A DNA stretch of 33,138 bases from Nitrospirota bacterium (GCA_016213945.1 JACQZF010000098.1:1-33138), one strand, 5' to 3'; shown: positions 12,500-22,196, counted from the stretch's first letter. Notes: generated from the sequence alone by a model not told the origin. Translations and numbers: made by a program.

Positions 12500-13918
12500 T
12501 CATTTCTCAATTGCCTCTTTACGTTTTATACGTTTATTCAGCGCCTGACGGGTGAGGCCCAGAAGTGACGCGGCTATGCCCTGATTGCCATTCGCACGTT
12601 TCAAGGCCTCGGATATCAGAAGGTCTTCCGCCTCTTCCAGAGTAGGTAAGCGTTCGTTGTCCTTGGTGATGGAAAAATTCTCATTAAGGTGCGGGGTAGC
12701 ATTGGTTTTCACATTCAAGCCTTTGTGTTTCATGAACTGCTTAAAACTATTCAGTGAAAGTATCCCGGAATTATGCTGAGCAACGGCGTCAAAAACCATT
12801 GCCTGCAACTCACGCACGTTTCCGGGGAAGGAATAATTCAACAGCATGGTGGTCAGCTCTTGCGGGTATGAAGGTTTTTTCTTTGCAAGTGAACTTGCCG
12901 CAGCCTCGAGAAAATGTTCAAGCAATAGCTGGATATCTTCCGTCCTTTCCCTGAGCGGCGGGATGTATATCGAATGCGCGCAGAGACGATAATACAGGTC
13001 CTTGCGGAATTTTCCCGCTGCAATTTGGGCCTCTACATCCTTGTTTGTGGTGGCGATAATGCGGACATCGCTTCTTTCCGCGGTGTCCGAGCCAAGAGGA
13101 TAATACTTTTGTTCTTCAAGAAGGCGCAGGAGCTTGATCTGGGAAGACTCATTGAGGTCTCCGAACTCATCAAGAAGCAGCACCCCGCCGGACGCCTTTG
13201 CAACCAAACCTTTTCTGTCCTGGTCCGCGCCGGTAAAAGCGCCCTTCTTGTGGCCGAACAATGTGTCGGAAAACATTGTGTCGTCAAGCCCGGCAACATT
13301 CACAGGCACAAACTCTCCATTGAGTCCGCTTACGGTATATACAATGCTTGCAAGCAGCTCCTTGCCCACTCCTGTTTCGCCGCAGATACAAACGGGCCTT
13401 TTAGTTTCTGCAATTGCCTCGATATACCGGAAGATAGCGTGTATCTTTTTACTGTTCGTGAGATAAGATGAAAAGGCCTCCCTGTTTTTCAGAGAATCGC
13501 TGAGCAATTGTTTTTTTAACGATGTTATCTCGTCCTTTAATTCTCTCAGCTCCAGCGCCTTTTGTACGCTTGATACGAACCTGCTCTTCTCGACGGGTTT
13601 TACAAGATAATCAAAAGCGCCTGCCTTCATGCAGTCAACCGCCATCTCCAGTTCATTAGTCGCGGTCATTACGATGACTGGAATATGCGGGTAATCATGG
13701 GTAATTTTTTTGAGCAGCTCCGTTCCCGAAACATACGGCATAACCAGATCCATTACAACTGCCGCAACCTCCTGGCGGTTTAAAAGATCAATGACCTGCC
13801 GGCTGTCATTTGACGTTAAAACATCTCCCATTGCTGATGTCCGCAGGATAAGACTGTAACTCAATAATATCTGTTCTTCATCATCTACCAGAAGAATGGG
13901 GCGCTTGCTGTTGCTCAT
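12500..13918 (-). CDS. Sigma-54-dependent response regulator (NtrC family)
   Basis: A 472-residue protein in three parts. The receiver domain (about 5-120) has the acidic pair D12-D13, the phospho-acceptor D57 (VVMDLVMP) and the K of YLVKP. The AAA+ domain (about 155-385) has Walker A GETGVGKE, the sigma-54 contact loop GAFTGA, Walker B GVLLLDEFGDL and the arginine-finger region. The Fis-type helix-turn-helix is at the C-terminus (GNQGIAASLLGLTRQALNKRI). It activates sigma-54 promoters when phosphorylated. Its likely partner is the PAS histidine kinase at 14768-16990, on the same strand with only the PEP-CTERM gene between. The layout recalls PrsK/PrsR control of PEP-CTERM genes, but the kinase is not PrsK-like. 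Confidence 0.95.
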   Translation of the reverse strand: MSNSKRPILLVDDEEQILLSYSLILRTSAMGDVLTSNDSRQVIDLLNRQEVAAVVMDLVMPYVSGTELLKKITHDYPHIPVIVMTATNELEMAVDCMKAGAFDYLVKPVEKSRFVSSVQKALELRELKDEITSLKKQLLSDSLKNREAFSSYLTNSKKIHAIFRYIEAIAETKRPVCICGETGVGKELLASIVYTVSGLNGEFVPVNVAGLDDTMFSDTLFGHKKGAFTGADQDRKGLVAKASGGVLLLDEFGDLNESSQIKLLRLLEEQKYYPLGSDTAERSDVRIIATTNKDVEAQIAAGKFRKDLYYRLCAHSIYIPPLRERTEDIQLLLEHFLEAAASSLAKKKPSYPQELTTMLLNYSFPGNVRELQAMVFDAVAQHNSGILSLNSFKQFMKHKGLNVKTNATPHLNENFSITKDNERLPTLEEAEDLLISEALKRANGNQGIAASLLGLTRQALNKRIKRKEAIEK

Positions 13919-14047: not shown

Positions 14048-14704
14048 TTACACTCTTCCGCGCTTCAGCAATCTTCTCCCTGCCAGCGTCGCCCCGCCTA
14101 TAACAAAAAGGATAGAGCTTATCGGCTCTGGGGCAACGGCAGAGGTTGAGTATGTGAGTGAACTGGAACCACCATGCTGAGTTTGACTTGTGCTTAAATA
14201 AACACTTATTGTATCTCCAAGAGATGTATTGATATTTAAGGTTCCATTCTCTGACAAATTTATAGTCCTGTCGTAAAGGGTTAGCCCACTTGTAGTATCT
14301 TTGATGGTAATTACAGCCGAATTAGAGATACTGCTTTCAGTATAATTATAGTCAAGAAGGAAAAATGGCTGTGTAACTATAAAACTCCCGCTGAAGATAG
14401 CTGTAGCCCTCAACCACTCATCACTAATAGTAATGCCAGAAAAGAGAGTGCTCGCATCTGGAATAGAGGCCGATGCATTTATCGAGGGATCTATTGGAAT
14501 TGCTGCACTAACTTCTATTGGGAGGGGTGGGCCTGTCCTTGTATACCAGATCGGTTGTTTATCCCCATTCTCGTCGATATACGCAGTTTGCGCAGCTACT
14601 TCATAATATGTTGAACTCCAAGTAACCGATTCTGCCGCTGCAACTAAAGGACAAACGAATAAAGAAACAATAACTCCAAACACTAAAATACTTTTGAGTC
14701 TCAT
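14048..14704 (-). CDS. PEP-CTERM sorting-signal protein
   Basis: A 218-residue secreted protein. A signal peptide (about residues 1-24, basic MRLK, hydrophobic core, cleavage after VAAAES) is followed by a Ser/Thr/Ile-rich beta domain without recognised catalytic motifs. The C-terminus is a PEP-CTERM signal: APEP at 191-194, a hydrophobic helix ISSILFVIGGATLAG and a basic tail RRLLKRGRV. Exosortase/EpsH cleaves such tails so that proteins are exported to the surface, often with exopolysaccharide. No exosortase or EPS genes are in the window. A GAGGGGG ribosome binding site precedes the ATG. It is located between a kinase and a sigma-54 activator, suggesting they control it. Confidence 0.92.
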   Translation of the reverse strand: MRLKSILVFGVIVSLFVCPLVAAAESVTWSSTYYEVAAQTAYIDENGDKQPIWYTRTGPPLPIEVSAAIPIDPSINASASIPDASTLFSGITISDEWLRATAIFSGSFIVTQPFFLLDYNYTESSISNSAVITIKDTTSGLTLYDRTINLSENGTLNINTSLGDTISVYLSTSQTQHGGSSSLTYSTSAVAPEPISSILFVIGGATLAGRRLLKRGRV

Positions 14705-14767: not shown

Positions 14768-16990
14768 CTATGCTTCTTGATACACCGGAAGTTTCATTGA
14801 TACCGTTGTGCCTTTGCCCTGTTTTGATTGAAAATCAAGAACGCCTTTATGCTCTTTAACGATCGAGTATGATATGGAAAGTCCAAGCCCTGTGCCGCCG
14901 CAGTCAAGCTTTGTGGTAAAGAACGGCTCTGTTATCCGCTCAAGGATATCTTCAGGTATTCCCGCTCCTTCGTCTTTCACCTCAATTACCGCGTAACCCG
15001 ATTTTTTGTCATACAAAGTTGAAACCCTGACGCCGCTTGCTTTATTGGGCAGCGCCTGCAGCGAGTTCATCATAAGGTTAATTACCACCTGTTCCAACTG
15101 TTGTGAGTTTCCCTTCACACACGGCATGTCCTCCGCATAAACAATCTGGAAATGGTCGGTACATTTTTTGATATGCGGTTCGAGGATCGCAGCGGCGGTG
15201 TTGACTATATTATTTACGTCTATCTTTCCCTTATTCGCAGCGCTGTCCGGTCTGGCAAAATTCTTCAAATTGTCTACGATGTTATTGATCCTTGCAGTGC
15301 CATCGGTTATGCCGCCTAACAGCTTGGGAACGATGCTGTTGAGTTCCGAGAAATTTATTCCGCCTAACATGAAATCCCCGTTTTGGCGATACTGCTCCGA
15401 CAGGAGACGGAAGGCGTCATTCCATATCTCACTGAACAGATAAGCATTAGACATGATATAACTGTTTGGATTGTTTATCTCGTGAGCTACGCCGGAGACA
15501 AGCGTGCCGAGGGAGGTCATCTTATTTGCGTGGACCAGTTTTGCCTGGATAAATTTTGCCTCTTCTTCCATGCGGACTTTGACGGTTATGTCTCTTGCAA
15601 GCTCCAAAACATTTCTTGCCTTTCCGGCTTCATCCTTTAAAGGAAACGCCCTGATGTCCCATACCCTCCCGTCCGGAGTTGTTATCTCAGCGGCTTCTTC
15701 TCTCCCTGTGCGGAAGCTTTTAATTAATGGATATTTATCGTTTAGAGGGAAAACGTTATAATATTGTCCAACAAGCTTAGTGGTGTCATTCTCCCATTGC
15801 GCAACTGCGGCCTTATTGCCCCACATCACCGTCATATCCGAGGAAAGCAGGACCAGGCTGTCAGGGATTGCGTCGAGCAGAACGTTGAATTCCTGAGAGA
15901 GTTTTTTGAATTTGCTTTCGCTTTCACGCAGCGCCTTTTCCGCCTGCTTCTCCCTCGTGACGTCAACAATAGAAAATAATATCCTTGAATATCCACCCTG
16001 ATACTGCTGGGGTATCTGCCACTTTACAGAAATATTATTGGGCTCACCGTCAAATTTTAAAGTAACAGCCTCGCCTTCGCGTTTACCCATGCCTTCGGCA
16101 ACGTAAATACACTCCTGCATAAAACAGTCCCATGTCTCTTCGCAGAATATCTTGTATATGTTGTTCATGAAATCCGGCTTGTCTTTCGCGCGGTAATTTT
16201 TGACTGTGGTCTCGTTGACATCGGTCACTTTTATCAGCGTGGCGCAATGCTCAAGGGCCTCGCGGTGCTCTTTAAAATATTTCGTGAAATCCGTTATCCC
16301 TTTTTCCTTCCTCAGGCGTTCCGTGTATTCTCTGATCCCGGAGTAATCTTTATCCCAGAGGGAAATCGGAGACTCCTCAAACCTTATCCGGTAGAGTTCT
16401 TCACTCTCTTTTAACGCCTCCTCCGCTTTTTTTCTTTCAATGATCTCGTTCTTTAATTCCGAATTTGATCTTTCCAGTTCGAGAGTATGTATCTTCACGC
16501 GCATCTGGAGCTCATCATGTGCTTTCTTTAACGCCTCCCCGGCGCTTTTATGCTCCGTAATATCACGCGCTACCGCGTACATCAACCCTTCCTGTTTGTC
16601 TGCATTAAAGTTCCAGCCGATCCATTTCTGAGAGCCGTCCTTGCACAATAAACGATTTTCAAAATATGGACTCCCCTTGCCCTCCTGTATTTCCTGGACT
16701 TTGGTTAAAGTCGCGCAATTGTCGTCCTGATGGACAAGTTTATAAAAAGGATGGGAGAAAAGTTCTTCGTCTGAATACCCGAGAATTTTCTTGAACGCGG
16801 GGTTTACCTGCTTAAAATAACCGGCCAGGTCAGTAATGCACAACATGTCATTTGAGAGGTCGAACAAATGTTCGAGGTTATTACCTGAATGCTGATAAAA
16901 AGTTTTTGGCTTCTCCACCTGCGAGACACGGCTGTGTTTTTTTGCAAACTCGCTTATGGACTGTATCTTTGATTTGTCCTCATCTTTCAT
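14768..16990 (-). CDS. Soluble multi-PAS sensor histidine kinase
   Basis: A 740-residue protein with no membrane segment. PAS1 covers about 40-150 (SNDMLCITDLAGYFKQVNPAF). A coiled coil runs about 150-195, a diverged PAS2 about 198-350 (carrying KVTDVNETT), and PAS3 about 362-470 (DAIPDSLVLLSSD). The dimerisation helix has the phosphorylatable His503 (VAHEINNPNSY). The HATPase domain is about 590-736, with N-box VINLMMNSLQAL, DEGAGIP and GGTGLGLSI. The VAHEINNP type is common in kinases paired with NtrC-like regulators. A strong ribosome binding site GAGGTGA lies 4 nt before the ATG. The likely partner is the sigma-54 activator two genes downstream. The signal is unknown; no heme or flavin ligands stand out. 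Confidence 0.94.
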   Translation of the reverse strand: MKDEDKSKIQSISEFAKKHSRVSQVEKPKTFYQHSGNNLEHLFDLSNDMLCITDLAGYFKQVNPAFKKILGYSDEELFSHPFYKLVHQDDNCATLTKVQEIQEGKGSPYFENRLLCKDGSQKWIGWNFNADKQEGLMYAVARDITEHKSAGEALKKAHDELQMRVKIHTLELERSNSELKNEIIERKKAEEALKESEELYRIRFEESPISLWDKDYSGIREYTERLRKEKGITDFTKYFKEHREALEHCATLIKVTDVNETTVKNYRAKDKPDFMNNIYKIFCEETWDCFMQECIYVAEGMGKREGEAVTLKFDGEPNNISVKWQIPQQYQGGYSRILFSIVDVTREKQAEKALRESESKFKKLSQEFNVLLDAIPDSLVLLSSDMTVMWGNKAAVAQWENDTTKLVGQYYNVFPLNDKYPLIKSFRTGREEAAEITTPDGRVWDIRAFPLKDEAGKARNVLELARDITVKVRMEEEAKFIQAKLVHANKMTSLGTLVSGVAHEINNPNSYIMSNAYLFSEIWNDAFRLLSEQYRQNGDFMLGGINFSELNSIVPKLLGGITDGTARINNIVDNLKNFARPDSAANKGKIDVNNIVNTAAAILEPHIKKCTDHFQIVYAEDMPCVKGNSQQLEQVVINLMMNSLQALPNKASGVRVSTLYDKKSGYAVIEVKDEGAGIPEDILERITEPFFTTKLDCGGTGLGLSISYSIVKEHKGVLDFQSKQGKGTTVSMKLPVYQEA

Positions 16991-18359: not shown

Positions 18360-19394
18360 GTGAATAAAAATGGCTTTTATAGACAATTGCAAGATATACG
18401 TCCAGGTTTACTGCTGGCTGTTTTGATCGGATTGGCTGGTTATGGCCTGACGAATGTACTGAAGTCTTCACTGCTTGACCCCCTGATTATTGCCTTGGTA
18501 TTGGGAATTGTCGTTAAATCTTCGTTGAAGAAAAGCAAAAGATTTGAATCAGGGGTCATCCTTGCATCTTCAATATTCCTTCCTGCCGGTATCATCTTTT
18601 ACGGCCTACAGAACCTGAATTTTGCAAAACTTAACGAAGTAGATCCGACCATACTACTTCTCATGCTGGTGGTCATGTCAGTCTACTTTGCAGTAATACT
18701 TCTGCTGGGCAAAGTATTGGGACAGAAAAAACAAATAACCTATCTCACCGCTTCTGGCTCAGCTATTTGCGGCGCTTCCGCTATCGCCGTTACGTCCCCA
18801 GCCGTAGATGCAGAACCCGACGACGTCTCGATCTCACTATTGTCCGTAACCATAGCAGCATTTGTAGGTTTTGCGCTTTTTATTCCATTCCTTGCCTCAT
18901 TGTTCAACCTTACAAGCAGGAATTACTGCTTCCTGACAGGGACCACTCTTCAATTTACAGGACTCGTGGCAGTTGCCGCCCAATACACGCCATTTTTAAA
19001 AAATGATATGCCTGTCAAAGAAATGCTCTCACTTGCGCTTACAGTGAAAGCGGTTAGATATCTTGCCTTGCTGGTCGCCGTTCCTCTTTTCTCGAGTCTC
19101 ATAAAAAAGAAGCTGTCCATCCCGTGGTTTCTATGGGCCTTCATTGCAGCAGGTCTATTCGGCACCTGGATCTATTCAGCGCATGGAAGCGCTTCCCACT
19201 CTGTTTTGGCACGATACATTAAACCGGTCCACACTATTTCGTGGTCCATAGCCATGTCGGCAATCGGGCTTAACGCGGAGGTGAAAGAACTGTTAAGCAA
19301 TAACGGTTCGAAGTCATTGATAATGGCTTTTGCTGGATTTATTGCGGCAACAATAACTTTCCTTGCCGGACTATATTTTATCAACTATATCTAA
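18360..19394 (+). CDS. YeiH/UPF0324 family membrane transporter (putative sulfate exporter family)
   Basis: A 344-residue membrane protein with about ten hydrophobic segments. The family signature GSAICGASAIAV is at about residues 137-148, preceded by the KKQITYL helix and followed by the DVSISLLSV and TLQFTGLVAVAAQY segments. Members are called putative sulfate exporters, but the substrate is experimentally weak, so anion export is only an inference. The start is a GTG with no clear Shine-Dalgarno (AAGAATATACCT before it). The stop is 2 nt before the ATG of the HAMP-PAS sensor, so the two are translationally coupled. Confidence 0.9.
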   Translation: MNKNGFYRQLQDIRPGLLLAVLIGLAGYGLTNVLKSSLLDPLIIALVLGIVVKSSLKKSKRFESGVILASSIFLPAGIIFYGLQNLNFAKLNEVDPTILLLMLVVMSVYFAVILLLGKVLGQKKQITYLTASGSAICGASAIAVTSPAVDAEPDDVSISLLSVTIAAFVGFALFIPFLASLFNLTSRNYCFLTGTTLQFTGLVAVAAQYTPFLKNDMPVKEMLSLALTVKAVRYLALLVAVPLFSSLIKKKLSIPWFLWAFIAAGLFGTWIYSAHGSASHSVLARYIKPVHTISWSIAMSAIGLNAEVKELLSNNGSKSLIMAFAGFIAATITFLAGLYFINYI

Positions 19395-19396
19395 CG

Positions 19397-21112
19397 ATGA
19401 GCACTAACACTGAATATAAAATCAGTTCTTCAAAGACAAGTATAAGAAACAATATCCTCCTGTCTTTCTTTTTTGTTTTAACTATCGGGGGAATCGCACT
19501 TAATATCATATTTCAAAATGTCATTCAAAAGACTTTATTTCATGAGGGAGTTGATAAAATAATTATTGAAAATATCAGCAGGCACTTTACGGTCATTGGA
19601 TCAGGGATCACTATCACGGGCATTCTCATTATTATGTTTATCGCCTTTTTCATGTCTGAAAGAATCACGAGGCCCATTAAAAAATTAACAAACGGAATGC
19701 TTGAGATAGCGCAGGGTAAGTGGGACACACGGATAAAGCTTAAGACTCATGATGAATTAGGTCAGCTTGCAGAGGGCTTTAATTTTATGATTGAGCGCAT
19801 TGAGAAGGCTTTGAGAGATCTGAAGACGGCAAAAGATTACACTGACAACATAGTGTTATCCGTCCCTTCAATCCTGATCGTATTAAGCAACAAATCAAAT
19901 ATACTTTCTGTCAATATGGCATTTGAAAGGCTGCATGAACAGTTTCCCTCAATTGCCATTGATCATTTTATTAAGCCGCTTGAAGATGAGCTCAACAAAA
20001 ATCTGCAGACCGGAAAAACCGTTAAAAAAGAATTCGTCCTTATTCCTGAAGGTTCTGATATTAGCCTGATTTTTTCCGGAATGCTATCCAGTATAGGAAA
20101 CGGAAAAGCAGATTATGATAGTGAAGAAAGAGCCAGTGTCCTTTTAACCATAACAGATATAACAGAGCGGACTAAAATGAAAGAGCTTGTTATGCAATCC
20201 AGACAGGATTGGGAGGATACATTCAATCTCATGCCCGACATGATCACAATCCATGATAAGGACTTTAATATCATACAGGCGAACAAAGCGGCACAGGAGA
20301 TACTCAAACTGCCCTTCCTGTCACCGGACAAGATAAACAAGTGCAGTAAGTATTACCATGGCACGGAAGCTCCTCCAGAAGGTTGTCCGAGCTGTGACTG
20401 TATGAACACAAAAAAGCCCGCAACGTTCGAAGTATTTGAGCCTCATCTGGAAAGGTATATTGAGATAAGGGCCATACCGAGAATTAATGCCGATAATGAA
20501 TTAATTGGGCTGATACACATTGTCAGGGACATAACTCAACGCAAACAGATAGAAGATGAACACAATCAACTCCTTAAAGTTGTAACACGTGCCAAGATAG
20601 AATGGGAAGTGACGTTCGACACGGTTAATGAATTCATCATACTGATAGACAAAAAATTCAATATTAAGAGATGCAACAGCAGCTTTGCCCAATATGCCGG
20701 ATTGCCGGCAAACGGGATCGTCAACCATAAATGCTATGACTATTTTATGCCCCACACCGAAAGTGATTTCAGTCATTGCCAGATGCTCATAGAAAATGAA
20801 GAGCCCATGGAAAGAGTGGAGATTAGGACCAGGGACGATCACTGGTTTTATGTAAGCCAGCGCCCCATACGGGACAAAAACGGCAAATATCTGCACACGG
20901 TCATTATAGCCACTGATATTACAAATCTTAAGAATGCCCAGCAAATGCTTAAAAAATCCGAACAGAACCTCAAGAAGCAGGTAGAAGACCTTGAAAAGTT
21001 TTATGAGATGGCTGTGGGCAGAGAGCTGAAAATGAAAGAACTGAAGAAAGAAATAAAAAAATTAAATTCCGAGCTTGCTACGTATAAAGAAAATGAATTC
21101 ATTAAAAAGTAA
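19397..21112 (+). CDS. Membrane HAMP-PAS-PAS-PAS sensor without output domain
   Basis: A 571-residue protein. TM1 is about 20-40, a short extracytoplasmic loop follows, TM2 is about 66-86 and HAMP about 88-140 (RITRPIKKLTNGM...DELGQLAEGFN). PAS1 is about 150-257, PAS2 about 270-382 and PAS3 about 402-510. A strongly charged coiled coil at about 512-571 ends in KKEIKKLNSEL. No kinase, GGDEF, EAL, HD-GYP or methyl-accepting domain is present. PAS2 holds a cysteine cluster, Cys316-x13-Cys330-x2-Cys333-x-Cys335 (HGTEAPPEGCPSC), a motif often seen in PAS domains of anaerobes. The end overlaps the start of the PAS-HD-GYP gene by 20 nt, so the coiled coil probably passes a signal to that protein. 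Confidence 0.9.
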   Translation: MSTNTEYKISSSKTSIRNNILLSFFFVLTIGGIALNIIFQNVIQKTLFHEGVDKIIIENISRHFTVIGSGITITGILIIMFIAFFMSERITRPIKKLTNGMLEIAQGKWDTRIKLKTHDELGQLAEGFNFMIERIEKALRDLKTAKDYTDNIVLSVPSILIVLSNKSNILSVNMAFERLHEQFPSIAIDHFIKPLEDELNKNLQTGKTVKKEFVLIPEGSDISLIFSGMLSSIGNGKADYDSEERASVLLTITDITERTKMKELVMQSRQDWEDTFNLMPDMITIHDKDFNIIQANKAAQEILKLPFLSPDKINKCSKYYHGTEAPPEGCPSCDCMNTKKPATFEVFEPHLERYIEIRAIPRINADNELIGLIHIVRDITQRKQIEDEHNQLLKVVTRAKIEWEVTFDTVNEFIILIDKKFNIKRCNSSFAQYAGLPANGIVNHKCYDYFMPHTESDFSHCQMLIENEEPMERVEIRTRDDHWFYVSQRPIRDKNGKYLHTVIIATDITNLKNAQQMLKKSEQNLKKQVEDLEKFYEMAVGRELKMKELKKEIKKLNSELATYKENEFIKK

Positions 21113-22196
21113 AACGGAAACACAGAGCGGCCTTGACCGGTATGTAAGGGACAACTTGAAGCTGATGGACTCCCTGCCCCACTCCGTATTCATAACGGAT
21201 ACCGATTTCAACATTGTATTTTCAAACACTGCCATGCAAAACCTTTTTGGCAATAACGGCAATTTTCATTCTGCAAAATGTCATCAATGGTTTCACCATT
21301 CAGATATCCCTGCAGAAGACCGCGCGATTTTGGTCCCGGACGGAAAGATGAAGGATGAACAAAGGAAAATATATGATGCCGGCCTTAATAAACATCTGCA
21401 GATAAATTCCTCTCCGCTTGTCCGCGATGAGAATTTAATTGGCATAATTCATTCCGTCACGGACATTTCCGAAATTAAAAGATCGGAAGAGGGGCATAAG
21501 GAATTGATTGAGATTTACGCAAGCGCAATTAACGACATAAAAAAACGGCAGATTAAGGCACAAACAGGGAGAGAGGCCTTTTTCAATATGCTTGAGGACC
21601 TCAATGAATCATTCAAAGAGCTTGAAGATTTATTCCTGAAACTTGTGCGTGTAATGGTCAACGCCCTTGACGCAAAAAGCCCGTGGACAAAAGGGCATTC
21701 AGAAAGGGTGTCGATGTATGCCGGACAGATCGCAAAGGAAATGATGCTTGACGACGATGAAATAAAGAACATCAGGCTTGCCGGCCTGCTTCATGATATC
21801 GGGAAAATCGGGACAGATGATTTTCTCCTTGACAAACCGGGCGCGCTAACAAGGGAGGAATTTGAAGTTGTCAGAAAGCATCCCGCCCAGGGCGCGGAAA
21901 TACTTAAAGGCATCAAGCAATTAAAGGACATTGTCCCTCTGATAAAACATCACCACGAAAAGCTTGACGGCACAGGATATCCTGACAGACTTAATGACGG
22001 ACAAATTCCGCTTGGCGCAAAAATCCTTCATGTGGCTGACTCATTTGATTCAATGACGTCTGACAGGCCGTACAGGCCTGCGCCGGGGACTGAATATGCA
22101 TTGTCTGAATTGCACAAATATAAAGGGAAACAGTTTGATCCGGCAGTGGTCGAGGCGTTCTTGAGAGTGCTTGAAAAACGACGGGGGAATAATTAA
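21093..22196 (+). CDS. PAS-HD-GYP c-di-GMP phosphodiesterase
   Basis: A 367-residue protein. A PAS domain spans about 20-130 (SVFITDTDFNIVFSNTAMQN), a linker helix about 130-190, and HD-GYP about 190-362. Catalytic motifs are complete: GHSERV, LLHDIGKIG (His234-Asp235), RKHPAQGAEIL, IKHHHEKLDGTGYP (GYP at 295-297), and HVADSFDSMTSDRPYR. Such proteins hydrolyse c-di-GMP to pGpG or GMP. A TTG at 21075 lies in frame, but the ATG at 21093 is preferred. The gene overlaps the sensor upstream by 20 nt. The PAS keeps the first part of the cysteine motif (AKCHQWFHHSDIPAED) but not the later cysteines. Its stop is 1 nt from that of the convergent dehydrogenase. Confidence 0.93.
   Translation: MNSLKSKTETQSGLDRYVRDNLKLMDSLPHSVFITDTDFNIVFSNTAMQNLFGNNGNFHSAKCHQWFHHSDIPAEDRAILVPDGKMKDEQRKIYDAGLNKHLQINSSPLVRDENLIGIIHSVTDISEIKRSEEGHKELIEIYASAINDIKKRQIKAQTGREAFFNMLEDLNESFKELEDLFLKLVRVMVNALDAKSPWTKGHSERVSMYAGQIAKEMMLDDDEIKNIRLAGLLHDIGKIGTDDFLLDKPGALTREEFEVVRKHPAQGAEILKGIKQLKDIVPLIKHHHEKLDGTGYPDRLNDGQIPLGAKILHVADSFDSMTSDRPYRPAPGTEYALSELHKYKGKQFDPAVVEAFLRVLEKRRGNN

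Follow-up and report, generated by a model that had tools for sequence, protein, structure and literature searches.

A membrane sensor and an HD-GYP phosphodiesterase as the probable core of a transporter-linked c-di-GMP locus in Nitrospirota

The stretch of DNA analyzed here (the window; 33,138 nucleotides, GCA_016213945.1 JACQZF010000098.1:1-33138) comes from a 3.5-Mb draft genome of a Nitrospirota bacterium and carries a trio of consecutive genes for a UPF0324 transporter, a membrane sensor without an output domain and an HD-GYP protein predicted to hydrolyze cyclic di-GMP (c-di-GMP). Our comparison with related genomes suggests the sensor and the HD-GYP enzyme are probably the core of the locus, with UPF0324 an optional, extra input. 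With moderate confidence, the trio can be read as a signalling chain in which UPF0324 is a facultative input, the sensor a relay, and a contact in trans between the tail of the sensor and the linker of the enzyme the output. The evidence consists of gene order, domains, motifs, the co-occurrence of tail and linker, a gene fusion, relatives that lost the transporter and kept the pair, and the association of UPF0324 with loop-only sensors and c-di-GMP enzymes. The features of the trio are as follows (TM, transmembrane helix).

18360..19394, + strand: UPF0324/PF03601 (PSE, YeiH-like) transporter, 344 residues, proposed facultative input module (Pfam, core motif)
19397..21112, + strand: output-less membrane sensor, 571 residues, TM1-27-residue loop-TM2-HAMP-PAS-PAS-PAS-tail (Pfam, hydropathy, alignment)
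19454..19648, + strand: TM1, short periplasmic loop (27 residues) and TM2 of the sensor (hydropathy)
19652..19804, + strand: HAMP domain (Pfam PF00672, E 6.4e-14)
20183..20572, + strand: PAS2 with Cys316, Cys330, Cys333 and Cys335 (KC..YHG..GCPSC.C; alignment of eight trios)
20936..21109, + strand: C-terminal sensor tail (AQQMLKKSEQNLKKQVEDLEKFYEMAVGRELKMKELKKEIKKLNSEL...), proposed output helix (sequence comparison)
21093..21112, + strand: overlap of the sensor and HD-GYP genes, 20 nt (coordinates; relatives show similar overlaps)
21093..22196, + strand: predicted PAS-linker-HD-GYP c-di-GMP phosphodiesterase, 367 residues (Pfam HD_5, E 1.4e-41; PDB relatives 4mcw and 5z7c)
21552..21647, + strand: linker IKAQTGREAFFNMLEDLNESFKELEDLFLKLV, proposed receiver helix for the tail (sequence comparison)
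21648..22148, + strand: HD-GYP catalytic domain (Pfam, motifs)

The stop codon of UPF0324 ends at 19394, 2 nt before the sensor ATG at 19397, and the HD-GYP ATG at 21093 precedes the end of the sensor stop at 21112, giving the 20-nt overlap; an alternative, longer HD-GYP start (TTG, 21075) was judged less likely. Both spacings are exactly those given in an earlier note on this DNA, and Pfam returns the domains it had named: PF03601 in the first protein, HAMP and PAS without an output in the second, and HD-GYP with a weak PAS in the third. The catalytic motifs (HDIGK, HHHE and DGTGYP) are intact, which places the protein among the predicted c-di-GMP phosphodiesterases. No kinase, GGDEF, EAL, HD or REC domain was found in the sensor by Pfam scan, placing it outside the two-component kinases. 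The long coiled coil that the note had placed at its end corresponds, by sequence pattern, to a charged, heptad-like tail formed by the last 58 residues, with the core ELEKFYEMAVGRELKMKELKKEI and 59-93% conservation in trio orthologs. Among the sensory domains PAS2 is the best conserved in the alignment of eight trios, and its four cysteines (KC-x13-C-x2-C-x-C) are a possible redox or metal site. PAS2-like domains are found at four other places in this genome, at 47-60% identity.

Control of the HD-GYP enzyme by the sensor through its coiled coil, as the earlier note had proposed, is well supported by comparison. At least 25 genomes of the family have the sensor and HD-GYP genes side by side. 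Other output-less PAS, REC-PAS, GAF and HAMP proteins carry the tail too, likewise at or close to the C-terminus, a position that holds for nearly all tail proteins found. Ten non-orthologous tail genes, encoding sensors with REC, GAF, PAS or TM inputs, are directly followed by an HD-GYP gene (L046, L179, L180, L183, L186, L187, L188, L207, L232 and L235); for comparison, a scan of the window's whole genome gives only 16 HD_5 matches above the cut-off. Partnered HD-GYPs share a linker, GREAFFNMLEDLNESYKELE, directly before the catalytic domain (consensus GREAFxNMLEDxxESYxELE). This motif is present in 10 of 11 tail-partnered HD-GYPs (weakly in L046) as against one of about 33 unpartnered ones. 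Across 61 genomes of relatives, a tail gene lies no more than 1.5 kb upstream of 48 of 61 linker-bearing HD-GYPs and of only one of 58 without the linker. The pairing extends to other families of the class, f8, f11 and f18 (L302, L306, L308, L310 and L313), and a tail was also found beside L311. A literature search with the tail motif strings found no paper.

Natural variants of the pair suggest what the tail may do. In G042, a relative from the same taxonomic order, a single 975-residue chain (L254) joins TM, HAMP and PAS domains to linker and HD-GYP; it is collinear with the window proteins (47% identical to sensor residues 238-537 and 63% to HD-GYP residues 119-361) and has no tail. The split form is found in G040, of the same family, where a 791-residue sensor with a tail overlaps the HD-GYP gene by 4 nt (L183). 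L255 is another single chain, TM-PAS-PAS-linker-HD-GYP. Three partner HD-GYPs (L040, L179 and L187) lack a PAS domain of their own, so that their input must come from another protein. Given the fusion, the split forms and the PAS-less partners, we infer that the tail, acting in trans, takes the place of the helix that runs unbroken through the fused protein.

Tail-like sequences were also seen in other settings. Two tail proteins in series precede an HD-GYP or a kinase at L046:3857-8404, L195 and L266:432-4408. At L266 the kinase itself has a weak version of the linker, and the pairing of tail and linker may thus extend beyond HD-GYP. A GREL(K/R)M variant of the tail ends a CheB-CheR-PAS protein (L201:467-4267) and other large chains, suggesting related tails are used more widely than for HD-GYP control.

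The transporter gene is also associated with sensors more widely than in the trio. In a phylogeny of UPF0324 the trio proteins form a clade within a clade of 14 members, all 14 of which are directly followed by a HAMP sensor, including one locus from Omnitrophota. The outputs within this clade vary: a kinase at L043, L047 and L048, a tail sensor with HD-GYP in the trios, two tail proteins and an HD-GYP at L046, and a tail protein with a REC-like protein, as read from sequence, at L036. At L042:8803-13336, UPF0324 is followed by a HAMP HisKA_2 kinase and a REC-PAS-PAS-PAS-GGDEF protein, predicted to form a transporter-linked diguanylate cyclase system. A second UPF0324 clade has the order UPF0324-kinase-REC, and a GAF-HD-GYP from a separate lineage often comes next. 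In total, UPF0324 loci carry c-di-GMP enzymes from at least three HD-GYP lineages and one GGDEF. More canonical UPF0324s (L087-L093) have no sensor neighbor.

Operons of UPF0324, a HAMP/PAS/GAF kinase, REC and HD-GYP were observed in other Nitrospirota families (L053, L097, L102, L106, L107 and L112). Judged by their domains, these operons are the likely phosphorelay version of a UPF0324-c-di-GMP module. Some adjoin DivIVA/HisS-like genes. The gene pair upstream of kinase-type UPF0324 loci resembled sulfur enzymes; from its sequence it reads as DivIVA and HisS, and therefore gives no functional hint.

The sensors linked to UPF0324 are of an unusual build. By hydropathy, 26 of 29 have an extracytoplasmic loop of 16-37 residues. 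Among 29 HAMP proteins from elsewhere in this genome, only one has a loop of 40 residues or fewer and nearly all have at least 113; a Fisher test was applied to this contrast, whose rows are not independent and whose lengths are hydropathy estimates only. Two TMs and a loop of about 25 residues are typical of intramembrane-sensing (BceS-like) proteins, and the trio sensor has both (27 residues), but HAMP and PAS domains rather than a kinase come after. As nearly all linked sensors are without a periplasmic domain, the transporter may supply the sensory part that they lack.

UPF0324 of the window belongs to the UPF0324/PSE family (PF03601, E 4.6e-48, 164 bits with a Pfam gathering cut-off of 24.5). 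It keeps the GSAICGASAI core motif, present in all 40 homologs compared, along with K230, R233 and G303; given the intact core, the protein has probably kept its transport function. In Salmonella, YeiH gives protection from sulfite (PMC12880088), and proteins related to it are considered exporters of sulfite or sulfate (PMC11582611). The window protein shares PF03601 and the CGASAI core with YeiH and SuyZ, putative sulfate-sulfite exporters of the PSE family, TC 2.A.98 (PMC12880088, PMC11582611). YeiH is paired with the LysR regulator YeiE, whereas the window UPF0324 is linked to a membrane sensor. A search of the PDB with the UPF0324 sequence gave no match. An AlphaFold model built from four sequences was poor (mean pLDDT 51), and its Foldseek matches, to bile-acid symporter and Na+/H+ antiporter folds (E > 0.05), were not used.

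The trio itself is found in identical order in five genomes of the same genus (G001, G004, G005, G007 and G009) and two others of the family (G011 and G023); recurrence in seven other genomes makes a chance arrangement untenable. A search of plasmid records gave no match. On the sensor tree there are at least six switches between presence and absence of UPF0324 (all genomes are drafts, and genes missing at contig ends were handled with caution). In G008 (L052:6092-9162) a UPF0324 remnant is internally deleted and the sensor is split over two frames while the HD-GYP gene is intact, reflecting either decay of the input side or, in part, an assembly error. Given this remnant and the single trio clade in the UPF0324 tree, repeated loss of the transporter is the simplest reading of its distribution, with gains as the alternative. 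In genus g2 the pair is kept with a soluble sensor that has lost its membrane part (L161 and L162), and in genus g5 the sensor is gone from the locus and HD-GYP remains (L256 and L257). This nested dispensability, first of transporter, then of sensor, then of enzyme, is as expected for input, relay and output.

Under the proposed mechanism, the HD-GYP phosphodiesterase and its dedicated membrane sensor would be two halves of one receptor-enzyme. The HAMP and PAS domains would set the state of the C-terminal helical tail, which would pair in trans with its counterpart, the linker preceding the HD-GYP domain, and so switch c-di-GMP hydrolysis, while the overlapping genes would ensure coupled, near-stoichiometric synthesis. 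UPF0324 would lie next to the two TMs, and its occupancy or flux would be the signal for a sensor lacking a periplasmic domain of its own, analogous to the transporter inputs of the kinases in BceAB-BceS and DctA-DcuS. Four elements of this scheme are deduced from sequence: the contact of tail and linker, the input role and the substrate of UPF0324, and the direction in which the enzyme responds. More tentatively, tail and linker may be a general plug and socket of Nitrospirota through which interchangeable membrane, REC, GAF and PAS sensors act in trans on c-di-GMP phosphodiesterases without phosphorylation, UPF0324 being plugged in front so that anion flux would be read directly into c-di-GMP.

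Several observations weigh against the signalling chain. Most tail-partnered HD-GYPs fall in one clade of the catalytic-domain tree, and the cases behind the tail/linker counts are therefore not independent; the tree points to an old linkage with exchanged sensors rather than to many independent inventions. No linker-bearing HD-GYP lies downstream of 78 of 126 tail genes, some of which adjoin unrelated genes, and the tail thus has other uses. In at least 17 further genomes of the family UPF0324 is missing and the pair of sensor and HD-GYP is kept, in almost every case next to the same divergent CinA-like gene, and the TM and HAMP regions of the sensor are not less conserved there; decay of the TM region after UPF0324 loss was considered and not seen among these relatives. 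The CinA-like and ADH genes around the trio are likewise syntenic in the family, so within-family synteny alone is weak evidence. UPF0324 scores 144.7 bits with TIGR00698 (YeiH sulfate/sulfite exporter), under the curated cut-off of 232.6, which makes a sulfur oxyanion substrate only a guess; a sulfite-like or other small anion is our best guess. The earlier note had named a lack of this gene neighborhood in relatives as evidence against its proposal; that objection fails for the pair, which is kept, and partly holds for the transporter, absent from most of them. The note's suggestion that the ligand sensed is one that the transporter handles is only partly supported. It gains from the constant placing of this UPF0324 clade beside HAMP sensors, usually without a periplasmic domain, and fails as a requirement, since most relatives keep the pair without UPF0324 and with an equally conserved membrane part.

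These losses can be turned into a different account, in which sensor and HD-GYP cooperate while UPF0324 is co-transcribed cargo, a client or bystander such as a sulfite or anion exporter, and the sensor reads cytoplasmic cues (the PAS2 cysteines, redox or a metabolite). The pairs without UPF0324, the soluble sensors of g2 and the strong conservation of the four-cysteine PAS2 all suit it. We nevertheless regard it as unlikely, if the most serious of the rivals, as every UPF0324 of this clade directly precedes a HAMP sensor, a pattern that spans two phyla and several outputs, and nearly all of these sensors are of the loop-only kind, a preference that would be surprising in a cargo gene. Slow rearrangement in the family could also have left three unrelated genes together, as the shared synteny of the CinA-like and ADH genes might suggest. 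The gene overlaps and the co-occurrence of tail and linker at unrelated loci speak against so plain a neighborhood, and the fusion and the UPF0324-sensor pairs in other families and phyla strongly disfavor it, leaving it the least probable of the explanations considered.

The sensor could instead be a degenerate protein or co-receptor of a histidine kinase, with the HD-GYP enzyme regulated by its own PAS. A candidate kinase lies nearby in the window.

14768..16990, - strand: soluble PAS histidine kinase, not counted in the module (library scans; not found beside several trios)
12500-13918, - strand: NtrC-type regulator, the kinase's own (scan)
14048-14704, - strand: small protein ending in a PEP-CTERM-like anchor (sequence)

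Kinase and NtrC-type regulator, the latter scoring under the cut-off on a PEP-CTERM response-regulator model, are found beyond the CinA-like gene in part of the relatives, and at other loci N-termini like that of the sensor are joined to kinases (L043, L047 and L048). However, both genes are mostly deleted in the closest relative, G004, which keeps the trio, and no PAS kinase was found beside the trios of G005, G009 and G011. Moreover, the kinase has its own regulator, and in the L254 fusion it is an HD-GYP, not a kinase, that shares a chain with the sensor PAS domains. A kinase partner with conserved linkage, which the earlier note had named as evidence against its proposal, is thus not seen; the neighboring kinase was rejected as the true partner for its inconsistency across relatives, and a co-receptor role is very improbable.

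Read as a signalling chain, the trio resembles several known systems in part. The extracytoplasmic loop of BceS is very short, like that of the trio sensor. In BceAB-BceS and DctA/DcuB-DcuS (PMC6978683) the transporter gene also adjoins that of a two-TM sensor, and the transporter is the proposed sensory part, as suggested here for UPF0324 from gene linkage and architecture; the trio differs in its PF03601 transporter, its lack of a kinase and its c-di-GMP phosphodiesterase output. RsbT acts on the linker of RsbU and drives a coiled coil, for which the authors propose an exchangeable toolkit covering diguanylate cyclases and kinases (PMC12143880). This is a precedent for a tail-on-linker switch, as in both cases a separate protein would switch an enzyme through a linker or coiled coil (in the trio from co-occurrence and fusion). 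In the trio, however, this separate protein is a membrane sensor whose C-terminal tail is conserved, and the enzyme is an HD-GYP. In the Vibrio polyamine receptor NspS-MbaA, a periplasmic binding protein acts on a single-chain GGDEF-EAL enzyme, with no transporter and no split linker. NspS-MbaA also ties c-di-GMP to a ligand at the membrane (PMC8967002), as proposed for the trio. SoxT1B-SoxR (PMC11582611) likewise has a transporter-like membrane protein in signal transduction, there in sulfur metabolism, but acts on a transcriptional repressor and not an HD-GYP. In a limited literature search we found no described transporter-c-di-GMP co-sensor; one review of c-di-GMP inputs mentions transporters once.

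Enzymes of c-di-GMP metabolism usually have their sensor in the same chain or are controlled by phosphorylation of a REC domain. A conserved tail/linker pair, if true, would be a third wiring, in which sensors and HD-GYP enzymes are separate and recombine, and two matching helices in place of phosphorylation are a suggested route by which a transporter may be wired to c-di-GMP. The pair would also suggest a testable function for the many output-less PAS proteins that carry this tail. To our knowledge, almost nothing is known of c-di-GMP inputs in environmental bacteria. The UPF0324 link, if true, would tie an anion transporter family connected with sulfite stress to the control of biofilm formation and motility in these organisms.

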